From Lentzea tibetensis (lineage in GTDB: Bacteria; Actinomycetota; Actinomycetes; Mycobacteriales; Pseudonocardiaceae), in NCBI RefSeq assembly GCF_007845675.1, contig NZ_VOBR01000041.1, positions 1-62,169 of the forward strand: a DNA stretch of 62,169 bases, in the 5' to 3' direction. Of this stretch, positions 1,165-62,169 are shown piece by piece. The position numbers and the translations under genes are program-made. The stretch's first letter is position 1, and each line of letters opens with the position of its first letter. The notes below the pieces were generated by a model. That model made no database searches. It was not told the origin of the DNA and worked only from the letters and a program-made list of their open reading frames with translations.

Positions 1165-1200
1165 CCTTCCGAGCTCACCAGTCAAGTTGGCAGGTCAGGC

Positions 1201-1246
1201 GTCGTGAGTGATTAGGAGGCCTATTGCACGCCTAATCACTCACGAC
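1201..1246. terminator. Perfect 16-bp inverted repeat between convergent esterase and mutM
   Basis: GTCGTGAGTGATTAGG at 1201-1216 is the exact reverse complement of 1231-1246, with a 14-base loop. The mutM stop (1240-1242) lies inside the right arm. There is no long T run on either side, so termination is inferred from position and symmetry only. The arms are AT-richer than the surroundings. Confidence 0.55.
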
Positions 1247-2127
1247 CTCTGACGTGCGCGAACAAGCCGTGTAGCCCGCGGCCGCGGCTGGCAGATCGGG
1301 CACGAGTACGAGGACCGGTTCATGAACGCCTCGCGGATGATCAGCGCGCCGCAGCGGCGGCACGGCTCGTTCTCCTGGCCGTAGGCGTTGAGGGACCGGT
1401 CGAAGTAGCCGGACTGGCCGTTCACGTTGACGTAGAGCGCGTCGAAGCTGGTGCCGCCCTGGTCGAGCGCCTCGTGCATGACGTCGGTGGCGTGGCTCAG
1501 CAGCTCGGCGGCCTGCGCCTTGGTCAGCTTGTCCGTCGGCCGGACGCCGTGGAGCTTGGTGCGCCAGAGTGCTTCGTCGGCGTAGATGTTGCCGATGCCG
1601 GAGACCAGGGTCTGGTCGAGCAGAGCCCGCTTGACCTCGGTCTTTCGGGCCCGGAGTGCGCGGACGGCGGCGTCGGGGCTGAACGCGGGGTCCATGGGGT
1701 CGCGCGCGATGTGGGCGACGGGTTCCGGGAGGCGGGTGCCGTCGACGTCGACGAGGTCGGCGAGTGCGAGGCCGCCGAACGTGCGCTGGTCGACGAAGCG
1801 CAGCTCAGGGCCGTCGTCGGCGAAGCGAATCCGGACGCGCAGATGTTTCTCGTCCGGGGTGTCAGATGGCTGGACCAGCATCTGGCCGCTCATGCCCAGG
1901 TGGGCGAGTATCGCGGCGTCCTCGCCGAGCTCGACCCACAGGTACTTGCCCCGTCGCTGGGCAGCGACCATCGGCAGGCCTGCGAGGCGCGCGCTGAAGT
2001 CAGCGGCGCCCGGCAGGTGCCTGCGAATGGCTCTTGGATGCAGCACCTCCACATCGGAAATCACCCGATTGGAGACATGCTTGTCTAGGCCGCGGCGGAC
2101 TACCTCGACCTCTGGAAGTTCGGGCAC
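1240..2127 (-). CDS. mutM: Formamidopyrimidine-DNA glycosylase (Fpg/MutM)
   Basis: This bifunctional glycosylase/AP lyase removes oxidised purines such as 8-oxoguanine. The mature N terminus [13 protein letters not shown] carries the catalytic Pro next to the initiator and the Glu pair. The C terminus has the FPG zinc finger CRRCG...CPICQ. The length, 295 residues, fits the family. I start at GTG 2127, which places Pro second as catalysis requires; the frame remains open upstream to 2205 but that would bury the catalytic Pro. It follows rnc and a small ORF on the same strand with one base between, as in the conserved actinobacterial rnc-fpg cluster. The stop codon lies inside a 16-bp inverted repeat. 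Confidence 0.95.
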
Positions 2128-13032: not shown

Positions 13033-14319
13033 ATGGCCGGGGCCGATGGGACCGGGCAGCCTCCTGCCCGCACAGCACATTTCGACGTAGTTCTCCGTGG
13101 TTACAACCAGCGACAGGTGAACGAACGCGTCACCCGACTGGAGTTCGATCTTCGGAACTCCAGCCGCGCGCGTGACGCCGCTGCGGCGCAGGTCGGCGAG
13201 CTCAACAAGATCCTCAACGCGACGAGAGCCGAGCTGGACAAGGTCAAGGGCCAGCTCACCAACCTGGCCAACAGCCCGGTGAGCGCGTCCAACGTCACCG
13301 AGCGCGTGCGCGTGATGATGAGCCTGGCCGAGGAGGAGATCGCCGACATCCGCAAGGCGGCGGTCGACCAGGCGAACGGCGTCCGCGCCGAGGCGGACCG
13401 CTACGCGTCCGAGACGAAGGCCGCCCACGCCCGCCTGCTGTCCGAGGTGGACGAGCGCCGCAAGCAGCTGGAGCTCGCTCACCAGCAGCGCACCGCCGAG
13501 CTGAGCCAGCAGTACGACGAGCGCCGAATCGCACTCGAGGCAGAACACGAGCAGCTCCGCGCCAAGCTGTCCGCCGAACACGAGGCCCTGCTGGTCGAGG
13601 TCCGCGCCGACGCCGAGCGCGTGACCACCGAGTTCGACCGCAAGACGGCCGAACTGGAGGAGCGCCGCACCGCGCTGGAGCAGAAGTACTCCAAGTACCA
13701 CGACGAGCTGGACAAGGAGTACGACGAGCTGCGCTCGACGTTGAACTCCGAACACCAGAAGATCCTGATCGACGCCCGCACCGAGGCCGAACGCGTTCTG
13801 GCCGAGGTGGCGGACCGCGAGAAGACCGCTGCCGCGGAACTCGCCGAGTCCCTGGCCGCCCAGAAGGCCGACACGGAGAAAATGATCTCCGAGCTGGAGT
13901 CCGAGGCCCTCATCAAGGTGGACGCGCTGACCACCGAGGCCACCACCAAGGCGGCCAAGACCGTCAGCGACGCAGACGAGTACGCGGCATCCAAGACCAC
14001 CGAGGCCGACGAGTACGCGACGCGCACCATCGGCGAGGCCGACGCGAAGGCCACCGAGACGGTCCGCGCGGCCGAGGCCAAGGCGTCCGAAACCGTGCGC
14101 TCGGCCGACGAACACGCAGACCGCCGCCTGACCGCCGCGTCCCAGCGCGAGACCACGCTCCGCAAGGTCCACGACGACCTCACCGCCCAGTTCGCCGCAG
14201 CGCAGGACGCGGTCGCGAACGCGGTGAAGTCCCTGACGCCGCTGCCCTCGCCTGGCGATGACGCGAAGACCGAGCAGTTCCCGCTGCCCCGGCCCGACAA
14301 GGACCGCAAGAAGTCCTGA
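13033..14319 (+). CDS. DivIVA-domain long coiled-coil protein (Scy/FilP-like polarity factor)
   Basis: The 428-residue protein opens with a DivIVA-type segment (HFDVVLRGYNQRQVNERVTRLEFDL) and is then almost entirely coiled coil, with repeats such as AEADRYASETKAAHARLLSEVDERR and later TTEADEYATRTIGEADAKATETV. It ends in a proline-rich charged tail. Such proteins, often labelled cellulose-binding in Streptomyces, organise the growing pole or cytoskeleton; that role is inferred from architecture. ATG 13033 is eight bases after TAGGG; an in-frame GTG at 13024 is possible. The gene is divergent from pyc and followed by a strong terminator. Confidence 0.8.
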   Translation: MAGADGTGQPPARTAHFDVVLRGYNQRQVNERVTRLEFDLRNSSRARDAAAAQVGELNKILNATRAELDKVKGQLTNLANSPVSASNVTERVRVMMSLAEEEIADIRKAAVDQANGVRAEADRYASETKAAHARLLSEVDERRKQLELAHQQRTAELSQQYDERRIALEAEHEQLRAKLSAEHEALLVEVRADAERVTTEFDRKTAELEERRTALEQKYSKYHDELDKEYDELRSTLNSEHQKILIDARTEAERVLAEVADREKTAAAELAESLAAQKADTEKMISELESEALIKVDALTTEATTKAAKTVSDADEYAASKTTEADEYATRTIGEADAKATETVRAAEAKASETVRSADEHADRRLTAASQRETTLRKVHDDLTAQFAAAQDAVANAVKSLTPLPSPGDDAKTEQFPLPRPDKDRKKS

Positions 14320-14361
14320 CCTGCGCAAACGCCGAAACTGTCGGTGTCGCGTGAGATGCTG

Positions 14362-14398
14362 AAAACAGGGGTTCCCCCCGGCCGGGGACCCCTGTTTT
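14362..14398 (+). terminator. Intrinsic terminator after the coiled-coil gene
   Basis: AAAACAGGGGT (14362-14372) pairs perfectly with ACCCCTGTTTT (14388-14398); an inner CCCC/GGGG stem follows after one bulged T. The right arm ends in TTTT. It lies 43 bases after the stop codon. Confidence 0.85.
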
Positions 14399-14404
14399 GC
14401 GTTT

Positions 14405-14429
14405 CCAGGCCAGGCCAGGCCAGGCCAGG
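14405..14429. repeat. Pentanucleotide microsatellite (CCAGG)x5
   Basis: Five exact CCAGG units in tandem directly after the terminator. Unit number may vary by slippage. Each unit junction is also a run of CCWGG-type sites. No coding role. Confidence 0.9.
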
Positions 14430-14612
14430 CACGGCTAGCGCGCTCGAGCTGGGCAGCGGGCCAGAGCAGTGGCGGGGCCGGAGCAGCGACAAGCCAGGGC
14501 GAGCGGGGTAGGCGCAGTCTGGGACGAGGCGCAACTGGGACGAGGCGGCGTGGGCGGGCCTGGCGGGACGGGTGACGGGTGACGGGCGGCGGGTGCGGAG
14601 ACCGGCGGCCTG

Positions 14613-14642
14613 TGCCAAGCGGGCCGCGCGGCCCGCTTGGCA
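14613..14642. terminator. Perfect 30-bp GC-rich palindrome in the non-coding region
   Basis: TGCCAAGCGGGCCGC is followed at once by its exact reverse complement, giving a 15-bp stem without a loop. It can form a cruciform or a bidirectional terminator. Between 14430 and 14612 I see only low-complexity GC-rich sequence with GACGGGT-type short repeats and no gene. Confidence 0.6.
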
Positions 14643-14643
14643 A

Positions 14644-15104
14644 CGCTCACGCAGGCGTCCCCGCACGTGAGAACCCCCCGAATCGATGCTCCCAGCCAGC
14701 ACCGACAATCCCCGGCCGCGCAGCGGCCTCAGCCATGAAACCGGTGCGAAAGCCAGCACTTCTGCGGCGCGGCGGAGACCCCGCGAGCGAAGCGAAGCCA
14801 GCACACCAAGCAACCCACACAAACCGGCAGGTACCAAGAGAGCCCAGCGAAAACCGGCAGATACCAAAAGAAAGAGCGCCCGCCGCACCAGCAACCCCCG
14901 CACTGCCAACCGGGCGCGGCCCCCGAACACAAACCGGCAGCCAAATGATCCCAAGCATCCGAACGGGCCAGGGGTGGGGAGGGGCTCGCTGATCAGGCGC
15001 AGCCTTGCCACATCGAAAAGCCCCTGTCAAGGCAGCTTTTCCGCCTTGACAGGGGCTTTTCGATGTGGCGACCGTGAGGTGATCAGCGAGCCCCTCCCCA
15101 CCCC
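14644..15104. repeat. Dispersed intergenic repeat element, copy 1
   Basis: This block is repeated at 61804-62169. Shared parts, in order, are a roughly 60-bp opening segment (CGCTCACGCAGGCGTCCCC and on), two spaced copies of AACCGGCAGATACCAA about 30 bp apart, a nearly identical stretch of about 75 bp ending AAACCGGCAGCCAAATGATC, and a giant hairpin. The segment between the first and second parts differs between copies. No reading frame in either copy resembles a protein family. Copy 1 fills the gap between two convergent genes and ends one base before the sigma-factor stop codon. Confidence 0.85.
14971..15104. terminator. Nested long hairpin of repeat copy 1
   Basis: The outer arms are perfect over 25 bp (14971-14995 with 15080-15104). 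The inner arms are perfect over 27 bp (15007-15033 with 15043-15069) around a nine-base loop. Inner-stem ends are AAAAG and CTTTT, giving T-rich tracts on both strands. Position between convergent genes fits a bidirectional terminator. The second copy has an inner stem of the same length with compensatory changes. Confidence 0.85.
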
Positions 15105-15105
15105 G

Positions 15106-16257
15106 TCAACGAAGAGAGTTGAGCCGCGCGGCTTGCCGAGTCAGGTGATCACGCTCAGCGAGGTTGGGCGCCTTCAAAGCAGCCTCGGCGTACAACCGAG
15201 CCGCAGCAACCACGTCGCCATCACGCTCATGGAGATAGGCAGCCACGGCCGCATACCGCGGCACCGACTCATCCACCCCCGCGAGCGCCGCGAGCCCGGC
15301 ACGCGCCCCATCGGCCTCACCAACGGCAACCGCACGGTTGAGCCGCACAACCGGACTGTCAGTCAGCCGCGCCAACTCGTCGTACCACTCGACGATCTGC
15401 ACCCAGTCGGTCTCCTCGGCAACAAGCGCGTCCGCGTGGAGTGCCGCGATGGCGGCCTGCGCCTGGAACTCGCCCAGCTGGTCGCGGGCGAGGGCCGCCT
15501 GCAGGATCTCGACGCCCTCGGCGATGGACGCGGTGTCCCACCGGCCGCGGTCCTGCTCGGCCAGCGGCACGAGGCTGCCGTCGGGCGTGGTCCGGGCGGC
15601 GCGCCGGGCGTGGTGGAGCAGCATGAGGGCGAGCAGGCCCGCCGCCTCGGGGTGGTCGATCGCGGACGCGAGCTGCCGGGTCAGCCGGATGGCTTCGGAG
15701 GCGAGGTCGACGTCGCCGGAGTAGCCCTCGTTGAAGACCAGGTAGAGAACGCGCAGCACGGTGGCGACGTCGCCGGGCTGGTCGAACCGCACGCCGGACA
15801 CGGTGCGCTTGGCCCGGCTGATGCGCTGCGCCATGGTCGCCTCGGGCACGAGGTAGGCCTGGGCGATCTGGCGGGTGGTCAGCCCGCCGACGGCGCGCAG
15901 CGTCAACGCGACCGCGGACGACGGCGTCAGCGACGGGTGGGCGCACAGGAAGTAGAGCTGCAGCGTGTCGTCCACCGCGGGCGCGGACCCCGGCGCCGGC
16001 TCCTCGTCGACGACGTCCTCACGCCGGCGGCGGGCGGCGTCCGCCCTGGTCGCGTCGAGGAACCGGCGCCAGGCCACGGTGACCAGCCAGCCCTTCGCGT
16101 CCCGCGGCGGGTCGGTCGGCCAGACGCGGATCGCCTCGACCAGCGCGTCCTGCACGGCGTCCTCGGCCGCCGCGAAGTCGGCTCCGCGACGGACGAGGAC
16201 CCCGAGCACGCTCGGCGTGAGGCTCCGGAGCAGGGCCTCGTTCATCTGAGTGGTCAC
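15106..16257 (-). CDS. ECF RNA polymerase sigma factor, ECF42-type with C-terminal helical extension
   Basis: The 383-residue protein has sigma region 2 (FAAAEDAVQDALVEAIRVWPTDPPRDAKGWLVTVAWRRFLDATR), region 4 (LTTRQIAQAYLVPEATMAQRISRAKRTV) and a roughly 200-residue C-terminal helical extension (GLLALMLLHHARRAARTTPDG, RLNRAVAVGEADGARAGLAAL) characteristic of the ECF42 group. These sigma factors lack a classical anti-sigma factor and are paired with a DGPF/YCII protein, exactly as here: GTG 16257 overlaps the YCII stop (GTGA), so the two are translationally coupled. The target regulon is unknown. The stop codon abuts the giant hairpin of the repeat element. Confidence 0.92.
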   Translation of the reverse strand: MTTQMNEALLRSLTPSVLGVLVRRGADFAAAEDAVQDALVEAIRVWPTDPPRDAKGWLVTVAWRRFLDATRADAARRRREDVVDEEPAPGSAPAVDDTLQLYFLCAHPSLTPSSAVALTLRAVGGLTTRQIAQAYLVPEATMAQRISRAKRTVSGVRFDQPGDVATVLRVLYLVFNEGYSGDVDLASEAIRLTRQLASAIDHPEAAGLLALMLLHHARRAARTTPDGSLVPLAEQDRGRWDTASIAEGVEILQAALARDQLGEFQAQAAIAALHADALVAEETDWVQIVEWYDELARLTDSPVVRLNRAVAVGEADGARAGLAALAGVDESVPRYAAVAAYLHERDGDVVAAARLYAEAALKAPNLAERDHLTRQAARLNSLR

Positions 16258-61803: not shown

Positions 61804-62169
61804 CGCTCACGCAGGCGTCCCCGTGCGCGAGAACCCCCCGAATCCATGCTCCCAGCCACGACCGACAATCCCGTGTCCACTGAAGCGGAGGCGGGCAAAG
61901 CGAGAACCGGCAGATACCAAGGGAGCACAGCGAAACCGGCAGATACCAAAAGATAAGGAGCGCCCGCCGCACCAGCAACCCCCGCACTGCCAACCGGGCG
62001 CGGCCCCCGAACACAAACCGGCAGCCAAATGATCAGAACAAACTTTCCCGGAGGGCAGGGGCGGGGAGGGTCTCGCTGATCAGGCGCAGCCTTGCCACAT
62101 CGAGAAGTCCCCGTCAAGGCAGCTTTCCGCCTTGACGGGGACTTCTCGATGTGGCGACCGTGAGGTGAT
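61804..62169. repeat. Dispersed intergenic repeat element, copy 2 (cut by window edge)
   Basis: This is the second copy of the element at 14644-15104. The inner stem is again 27 bp and perfect (62094-62120 with 62129-62155), with three compensatory pair changes relative to copy 1 and an eight-base loop. The outer left arm (62061-62082) is present; its partner begins at 62166 and runs out of the window. Bases 61678-61803 before it hold no gene that I can see. Confidence 0.85.

Follow-up and report, generated by a model that had tools for sequence, protein, structure and literature searches.

A giant two-storey hairpin beside a sigma factor gene of Lentzea tibetensis belongs to a dispersed family of such hairpins that extends through the genus. 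In the reading that we favor, with a probability of roughly 50%, the arms would be kept matched by template switching and the copies by gene conversion, and the structures would be retained as a barrier or insulator at gene 3' ends. The DNA would fold during replication, with one arm repeatedly copied from the other, and gene conversion between copies would keep those of a genome alike; less surely, a giant hairpin after a stop codon would act through termination, protection of the mRNA end, or a block to read-through. The window, i.e., the whole stretch of 62,169 nucleotides that was analyzed, is contig C46 of a 9.36-Mb genome (105 contigs), and it contains the following features of two copies of the element.

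14645 to 15104, plus strand: element copy 1, from the head block to the end of the right outer arm
14645 to 14713, plus strand: conserved head block of copy 1 (GCTCACGCAGGCGTCCCCG...)
14823 to 14868, plus strand: two tandem repeat units of about 30 bp (ACCGGCAGRTACCAAR), copy 1
14876 to 14917, minus strand: second, smaller GC hairpin GCGCCCG...CGGGCGC, copy 1
14971 to 14995, plus strand: left outer arm of copy 1, 25 bp
14996 to 15004, plus strand: left junction mini-hairpin GGC-GCA-GCC, copy 1
15007 to 15033, plus strand: left inner arm of copy 1, 27 bp
15034 to 15042, plus strand: loop AGCTTTTCC of copy 1 (GGAAAAGCT on the strand of the adjacent gene)
15043 to 15069, plus strand: right inner arm of copy 1, 27 bp
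15072 to 15079, plus strand: right junction mini-hairpin CC-GTGA-GG, copy 1
15080 to 15104, plus strand: right outer arm of copy 1, 25 bp
15106 to 16257, minus strand: adjacent gene, sigma-70 region 2/4 protein with DUF6596
61804 to 62169, plus strand: element copy 2, truncated by the contig end inside the right outer arm
61906 to 61950, plus strand: two tandem repeat units, copy 2
61985 to 62003, plus strand: conserved core, copy 2
62058 to 62082, plus strand: left outer arm, copy 2
62094 to 62120, plus strand: left inner arm, copy 2
62121 to 62128, plus strand: loop AGCTTTCC, copy 2
62129 to 62155, plus strand: right inner arm, copy 2

The 132-nt structure of copy 1 has a predicted folding energy of -109.5 kcal/mol (shuffled mean of -50, z = -14), and its end abuts the stop codon of the minus-strand sigma gene at 15106, 2 nt from the outer arm. 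The original prediction was correct in describing a perfect 25-bp outer stem in copy 1 (14971-14995/15080-15104) and perfect 27-bp inverted repeats as the inner stems of both copies (loops of 9 nt in copy 1 and 8 nt in copy 2), and the three differences between these inner stems (stem positions 11, 15, and 19) are all compensated, as it had stated. The conserved core CACTGCCAACCGGGCGCGG, located at 14901-14919 in copy 1, lies mostly inside the smaller GC hairpin, which is followed in the minus-strand reading by a T-rich run (14866-14875); by sequence only, this hairpin and run (14866-14917) are terminator-like, and a scan listed a match close by.

The element had been described as two-copy, which is true within the window only, as genome-wide searches gave dozens of sites. 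A 461-bp query yielded 108 matches in the genome (40 candidates scored), and the 19-base core with up to 2 mismatches was located at 39 forward and 24 reverse sites, compared to 0 for the reversed control. When up to 3 mismatches were allowed, the fetched loci of this genome contained 65 core sites, of which 43 possess the giant inner hairpin, 3 possess another or an overwritten hairpin (L045, L046, and L066), and 19 have no inner hairpin, some of these retaining an outer stem; the last two groups were dropped before the counts given below. Repeat units of the AACCGGCAGATACCAA type provided 122 + 87 = 209 matches (reversed control, 1 + 3), and more full or partial copies are present at contig ends and in arrays with an altered core. 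Many contigs begin or finish inside a hairpin; assemblies thus break at such sites, and the window too ends inside one. A scan of public genomes with a 20-base core pattern gave 0 matches, Rfam at gathering thresholds reported two tRNAs only in the window and no curated family for the element, and among the papers listed by literature searches none dealt with such elements in Lentzea.

Along the plus strand of the window, the element consists of the head block, the tandem repeat (0 to 9 recognized 30-bp units per copy), the smaller GC hairpin with the core, a linker, and the giant structure. The latter is a two-storey inverted repeat in which an outer and an inner stem are joined at a four-way junction with two tiny hairpins. 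It comprises a left outer arm (24-25 bp), a mini-hairpin GGC-GCA/GAA-GCC (loop GCA in 29, GAA in 10, and AAA in 1 of 40 copies), the 27-bp inner stem with its 8-9-nt loop, a mini-hairpin CC-GTGA-GG or CC-TCT-GG, and the right outer arm. The copies are mosaics in which linkers, spacers, and stems are combined in various ways. The mean pairwise similarity of the 43 copies is 83% and the best pair reaches 95.4%, indicating that no very young copies were seen. Diverged, partly tandem core units without a giant hairpin were also noticed (L063 3929-4002, L065 3854-4080, L049, and L060), possibly representing an older repeat that the hairpin module entered.

Other long hairpins were encountered beside this family. 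A second family with GTGAGTGATTAGG stems, also with varying arms, is present in L. tibetensis, and a third, consisting of simple giant hairpins with GGGGAGCTTTC or CGCGGGGACCTTTCG stems (grouped by eye), occurs both there and in congeners. A perfect 22-bp hairpin with a 4-nt loop at window positions 50384-50431 matches none of these three families by eye. Congeners additionally possess imperfect hairpins whose arms measure about 70-80 nt and which in some cases have CTAG or TTAG at their borders; they resemble MITEs. Their locations are as follows.

Second family (GTGAGTGATTAGG stems): window 1190-1257; L041 4496-4563; L059 3990-4057; L065 13658-13725; L297 near 103
Third family: L046 253-305; L049 6919-6971; L066 4064-4118
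Third family, further loci: L140 5543; L287 5234; L320 2794; L321 2771; L323 1222; L326 2543
Imperfect hairpins with arms of about 70-80 nt (other Lentzea): L251 2714; L265 2538; L269 9926; L273 15076; L275 18887

Pairing within the two-storey hairpins was assessed for both stems. In the inner stems of the 43 copies, 1156 of 1161 pairs are Watson-Crick and the other five comprise two T·C, two A·C, and one G·T, with 18 distinct left inner-arm sequences in the 40 copies with parseable outer arms (a table that omits L037, L047, and window copy 2). For the 25 distinct rows of the inner stem, 98.8% of the cells are paired, 17 of the 27 pairs are double-changed, and no pair varies on one side only; the covariation score was reached by 0 of 500 shuffles. 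The outer stem (33 complete copies) is 98.2% paired with double changes at 6 of 24 pairs. Its exceptions are mainly combinations of arms of differing types, and the 8 G·U versus 4 A·C pairs (the A·C counted by eye) exhibit no clear strand bias. The outer arms are inverted, partly invariant within the L. tibetensis genome, and different between species. Four loci (L079, L312, L313, and L315) were counted only in the alignment of 47 hairpins and in the 25-row covariation analysis, and partial hairpins at contig starts (L309, L310, L311, and L314) entered no count. L079, located at a contig start and having mismatched arms, may be an assembly chimera, and the outer-arm mosaics could partly be short-read assembly errors. 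The covariation first noticed in two copies is real, extending to 17/27 inner and 6/24 outer pairs, but the accompanying inference of selection on the folded form is not warranted. That conclusion is unsafe because wobble intermediates are nearly absent, and because half-converted hairpins, inverted loops, and a snap-back footprint suggest DNA copying.

The left outer arm of copy 2 had been assigned one G-to-T change with a matching C-to-A change expected beyond the window. Two changes relative to copy 1 are present in that arm, T to C at 62062 and G to T at 62071. The contig stops at 62169, and the bases beyond are not part of it. Contig C72 (locus L310) begins with the inner-stem type of copy 2 and with loop AGCTTTCC, which among the 47 aligned hairpins belongs to copy 2 only (another type has a different 8-nt loop). 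The right arm in C72 has both compensating changes, in agreement with the expected C-to-A partner, but the joining of C72 to copy 2 is likely, not proven: the 63 nt common to the end of copy 2 and the start of C72 are 96.8% identical, not 100%, and a synteny comparison gave no confirmation that C72 continues the window. By eye, the C-to-A partner accompanies the left-arm type of copy 2 in 5 of 10 scorable copies (present in L038, L059, L074, L077, and L085; absent from L035, L036, L048, L065, and L075). The outer stem is thus coupled less strictly than the inner stem.

Several hairpins carry marks expected of DNA copying. At L045, the left arm and part of the mini-hairpin reappear as a reverse copy at the start of the right arm; this overwritten arm is, judging from its sequence, a footprint of strand switching onto itself. 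The loop of L057 is inverted, and the tip is inverted relative to its flanks (by eye) in L406 and L419 of other species, corresponding to 2 of 60 copies. Half-converted hairpins are found at L399, L418, and L055. L399 of genome G001 possesses a left arm of the type of its G016 orthologue and a right arm of the type of its own genome, and it looks like a conversion tract ending within the hairpin. We infer these copying events from their footprints, none having been observed directly. According to two reports (PMC8604942, PMC8794818), template switching homogenizes arms, inverts loops, and yields compensatory changes. We favor the view that the arms would be kept matched by DNA copying, i.e., template switching plus conversion, rather than by RNA selection.

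For a protein encoded next to another copy, relatives come from Lentzea (Pseudonocardiaceae) at 15 of the first 16 loci. The whole element was detected in 0 of 24 other Lentzea genomes, and among 391 genomes of the family (two candidates scored per genome) in L. tibetensis only. The hairpin tip, GTCAAG-N-GAAAAGC-N-CTTGAC, is present in 16 of 25 Lentzea genomes (reversed control, 0), with 45 matches in L. tibetensis and 146 across 15 other genomes (13 in G016, 11 in G018, and the maximum of 38 in G020). The search fixed GTCAAG, GAAAAGC, and CTTGAC, which are conserved by construction, leaving the letters between them as the sole test. These letters are complementary in 59 of 60 copies by script and, by eye, in 122 of 123 among the other-genome matches listed (123 of the 146, excluding G022, G023, and G024). 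Sixty other-genome loci from six genomes were fetched with long flanks, along with 28 further loci with short flanks that are partly identical places. The fetched copies of other species have the two-storey form too, but with a different outer stem. Outside the tip, the L. tibetensis element is unlike those of congeners, which would require conversion to have replaced almost everything. Certain tip types were encountered in a single genome (TCGC in G001, a single C in G020), TCGAC tips occur in eight genomes among the matches listed, and G016 has two tip types that are equally frequent.

Comparison of flanks after masking the hairpins (only 100 nt either side of the loop center) revealed 23 between-genome pairs with similar flanks, 12 of them on both sides, and the tip orientation is the same in 21 of the 23. 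For L405-L427, the similarity covers 285 nt beside the element and probably reflects the element alone, which makes this pair doubtful. Ten shared-site pairs, representing 5 of 41 L. tibetensis loci versus 60 sampled copies elsewhere, involve that genome; the sites include the ends of rpoC (L061 with L389 and L373) and of the ribosomal protein S1 gene, rpsA (L063 with L395, L422, and L427). As a control, flanks of 15 of the 60 other-genome loci matched the element loci of L. tibetensis (442 kb) versus 4 of 60 matching its random sequence (400 kb). No tip-family hairpin was seen at the four random places, and for L377-L049, which is among the 15, L. tibetensis has a hairpin of another family. 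Over 151 nt, shared-site orthologues have a mean identity of 0.65 (23 pairs) compared to 0.59 for random between-genome pairs and 0.81-0.94 within six genomes. For the 63-nt inner hairpin, the contrast is weaker (0.67 for orthologues, 0.60 for random pairs, and 0.71-0.98 within genomes), and the pair L415-L421 (G016 and G018) is an exception, its value of 0.90 exceeding the within-genome means of both. Overall, similarity is higher among the copies of one genome than between orthologues at shared sites, which is the pattern of concerted evolution.

Sites are also gained, as the sigma-gene site lacks the element in all 24 congeners. A hairpin scoring at least 12 is located downstream of that gene in 10 of the 24 (by script), and 21 of the 24 share a convergent neighbor that is not beside the gene in L. 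tibetensis (by eye); the site therefore coincides with a synteny break. The genes that congeners have as neighbors at the sigma and leuB sites are missing from the fetched L. tibetensis loci, and visual inspection gave no alignment of the congeners' intergenic regions at either the sigma or the UDP-glucose dehydrogenase site. Synteny breaks at the element after the sigma gene (window 14319-15106), and also after a leuB-like gene if C72 continues the window, as if copies served as recombination points. At the 3' end of the UDP-glucose dehydrogenase gene, a two-storey hairpin is present in L. tibetensis (L036) and in G017 (L360); in the examined stretches of 17 other Lentzea loci no tip-family hairpin was seen.

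A more far-reaching alternative, which we hold only tentatively, is that genome-wide arm-to-arm and locus-to-locus copying rewrites the hairpins, many of them retained at inherited sites, in concert and without a Y1 transposase, possibly by way of a dedicated factor recognizing the conserved GAAAAGC loop and the four-way junction. Some tip types are common to several genomes, making both this alternative and our favored reading slightly less likely. The main rival, which we regard as rather unlikely, is recurrent insertion into preferred slots, which would give much the same picture as concerted evolution. A non-autonomous hairpin element of each species, with fixed orientation, would enter hot spots or replace older hairpins, such that shared sites would be parallel events and copies would be alike from having one source. 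Transposition in which inverted repeats are replaced is reported for one insertion sequence (PMC5678879). Recurrent insertion agrees with the occupation of the sigma-gene site in L. tibetensis only and with the use of one slot by different families (the tip family in G020 at L377, an GGGGAGCTTTC hairpin in L. tibetensis at L049). It also agrees with the identities of the ten L. tibetensis shared-site pairs (0.49-0.61), which are no closer than, and the same as, those to non-orthologous copies (0.52-0.60). The main counter-argument is L399, where the arm type of the orthologue is retained on one side only. Furthermore, the 43 L. tibetensis copies include no near-identical young pair (best 95.4%, mean 83%), a search for the Y1 family found no such transposase in this genome, and no target-site duplication was seen.

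If the hairpin were transcribed, within a 3' UTR or on its own, compensatory mutations could restore its fold; such selection on RNA structure is in our estimation improbable. It would account for the covariation in inner and outer stems, the conservation of the two-storey form across species, and the position after stop codons in L. tibetensis; in addition, the A·C pairs at the inner-stem base in other species are G·U on the opposite strand. In contrast, the inner stems have a single G·U among 1161 pairs, the outer stem (8 G·U versus 4 A·C) lacks a clear strand bias, arms of different origin are combined within single hairpins (L399, L418, and L055), and loop inversions are found.

The hairpins of L. 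tibetensis are positioned at gene ends. The adjacent gene reads into the hairpin end in 30 of 33 scorable copies (p = 1.4e-6; gene calls were from a custom codon-position script, and 10 further copies have a contig edge or no gene call), and the stop codon is a median of 27.5 nt from the element, within 38 nt in 18 of the 30. For other species this link is weak, with 16 convergent of 48 scorable copies. Here, as in intrinsic terminators, a hairpin immediately follows the stop codon on the gene's strand; however, the giant hairpin of copy 1 has no T-tract behind it, the T-rich run being only behind the smaller second hairpin, and in 4 of the 30 copies another perfect hairpin (7 bp or longer) lies between the stop codon and the element. 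These two observations weaken the plain terminator as an explanation, and the original prediction was fair in doubting it. Its suggestion of a mobile or packaged element holds insofar as the repeat is dispersed, but orthologous sites in other species are occupied by some copies, and a search limited to the Y1 family found no such transposase in L. tibetensis; nothing examined points to packaging. A species-specific mobile element was at first favored by the 0 of 24 congeners and by the restriction to L. tibetensis among the 391 family genomes, and it is weakened by the shared tip and sites. Our guess is that the giant hairpin serves as a 3'-end barrier or insulator. The palindromes stay perfect although 19 of 65 core sites are without an inner hairpin, so selection may act too.

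Copying of a REPIN-like repeat by a RAYT (Y1) transposase that is inherited vertically is very improbable: dispersed extragenic hairpins with compensatory changes, as reported for REPINs in PMC3116915, and similarity of copies within a genome speak for it, but it is not supported for L. tibetensis (G000), in which the Y1 family search gave 0 matches to Y1_Tnp (PF01797), nor is there a match in G016, G018, or G020 despite their 13, 11, and 38 tips. Y1_Tnp is present in 11 of 25 genomes with no visible relation to tip number. Escherichia coli genomes without RAYT can still contain REPINs (PMC8049555), so its absence here is not proof against that reading.

Covariation is the usual proof of a functional RNA, and in this family its near-perfect form looks as if DNA copying had produced it. 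As genomes contain up to dozens of loci and many species are represented, the explanations by RNA selection and by DNA copying become separable, and the family would represent concerted evolution of dispersed bacterial non-coding repeats with half-converted intermediates still visible. REPIN/REP sequences are likewise extragenic and present in many copies. The Lentzea element differs from REPIN/REP-BIME systems in having no Y1/RAYT gene in the L. tibetensis genome, two storeys, a four-way junction, and a shared apical loop, and in the resemblance among copies of one genome, whose sites are partly common to different species. With MITEs and inverted-repeat-replacing insertion sequences (PMC5678879) it shares short non-coding repeats, long inverted repeats, and hairpin slots as possible targets, whereas in Lentzea no target-site duplication or empty site was found (the Y1 transposase family alone was searched). 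The bacterial stem-loop repeat families described in PMC2267715 are also intergenic repeats sharing a predicted fold; those were derived from within-genome clustering, whereas the sites, orientation, and tip of the Lentzea hairpins were followed across species. Homogenization of arms and inversion of the loop (spacer) are common to this family and to the inverted repeats homogenized by template switching (PMC8604942 and PMC8794818). The systems in those reports are yeast coding repeats or rRNA and microRNA stems, whereas the Lentzea hairpins form a dispersed multi-locus family, so conversion between copies must act besides template switching.
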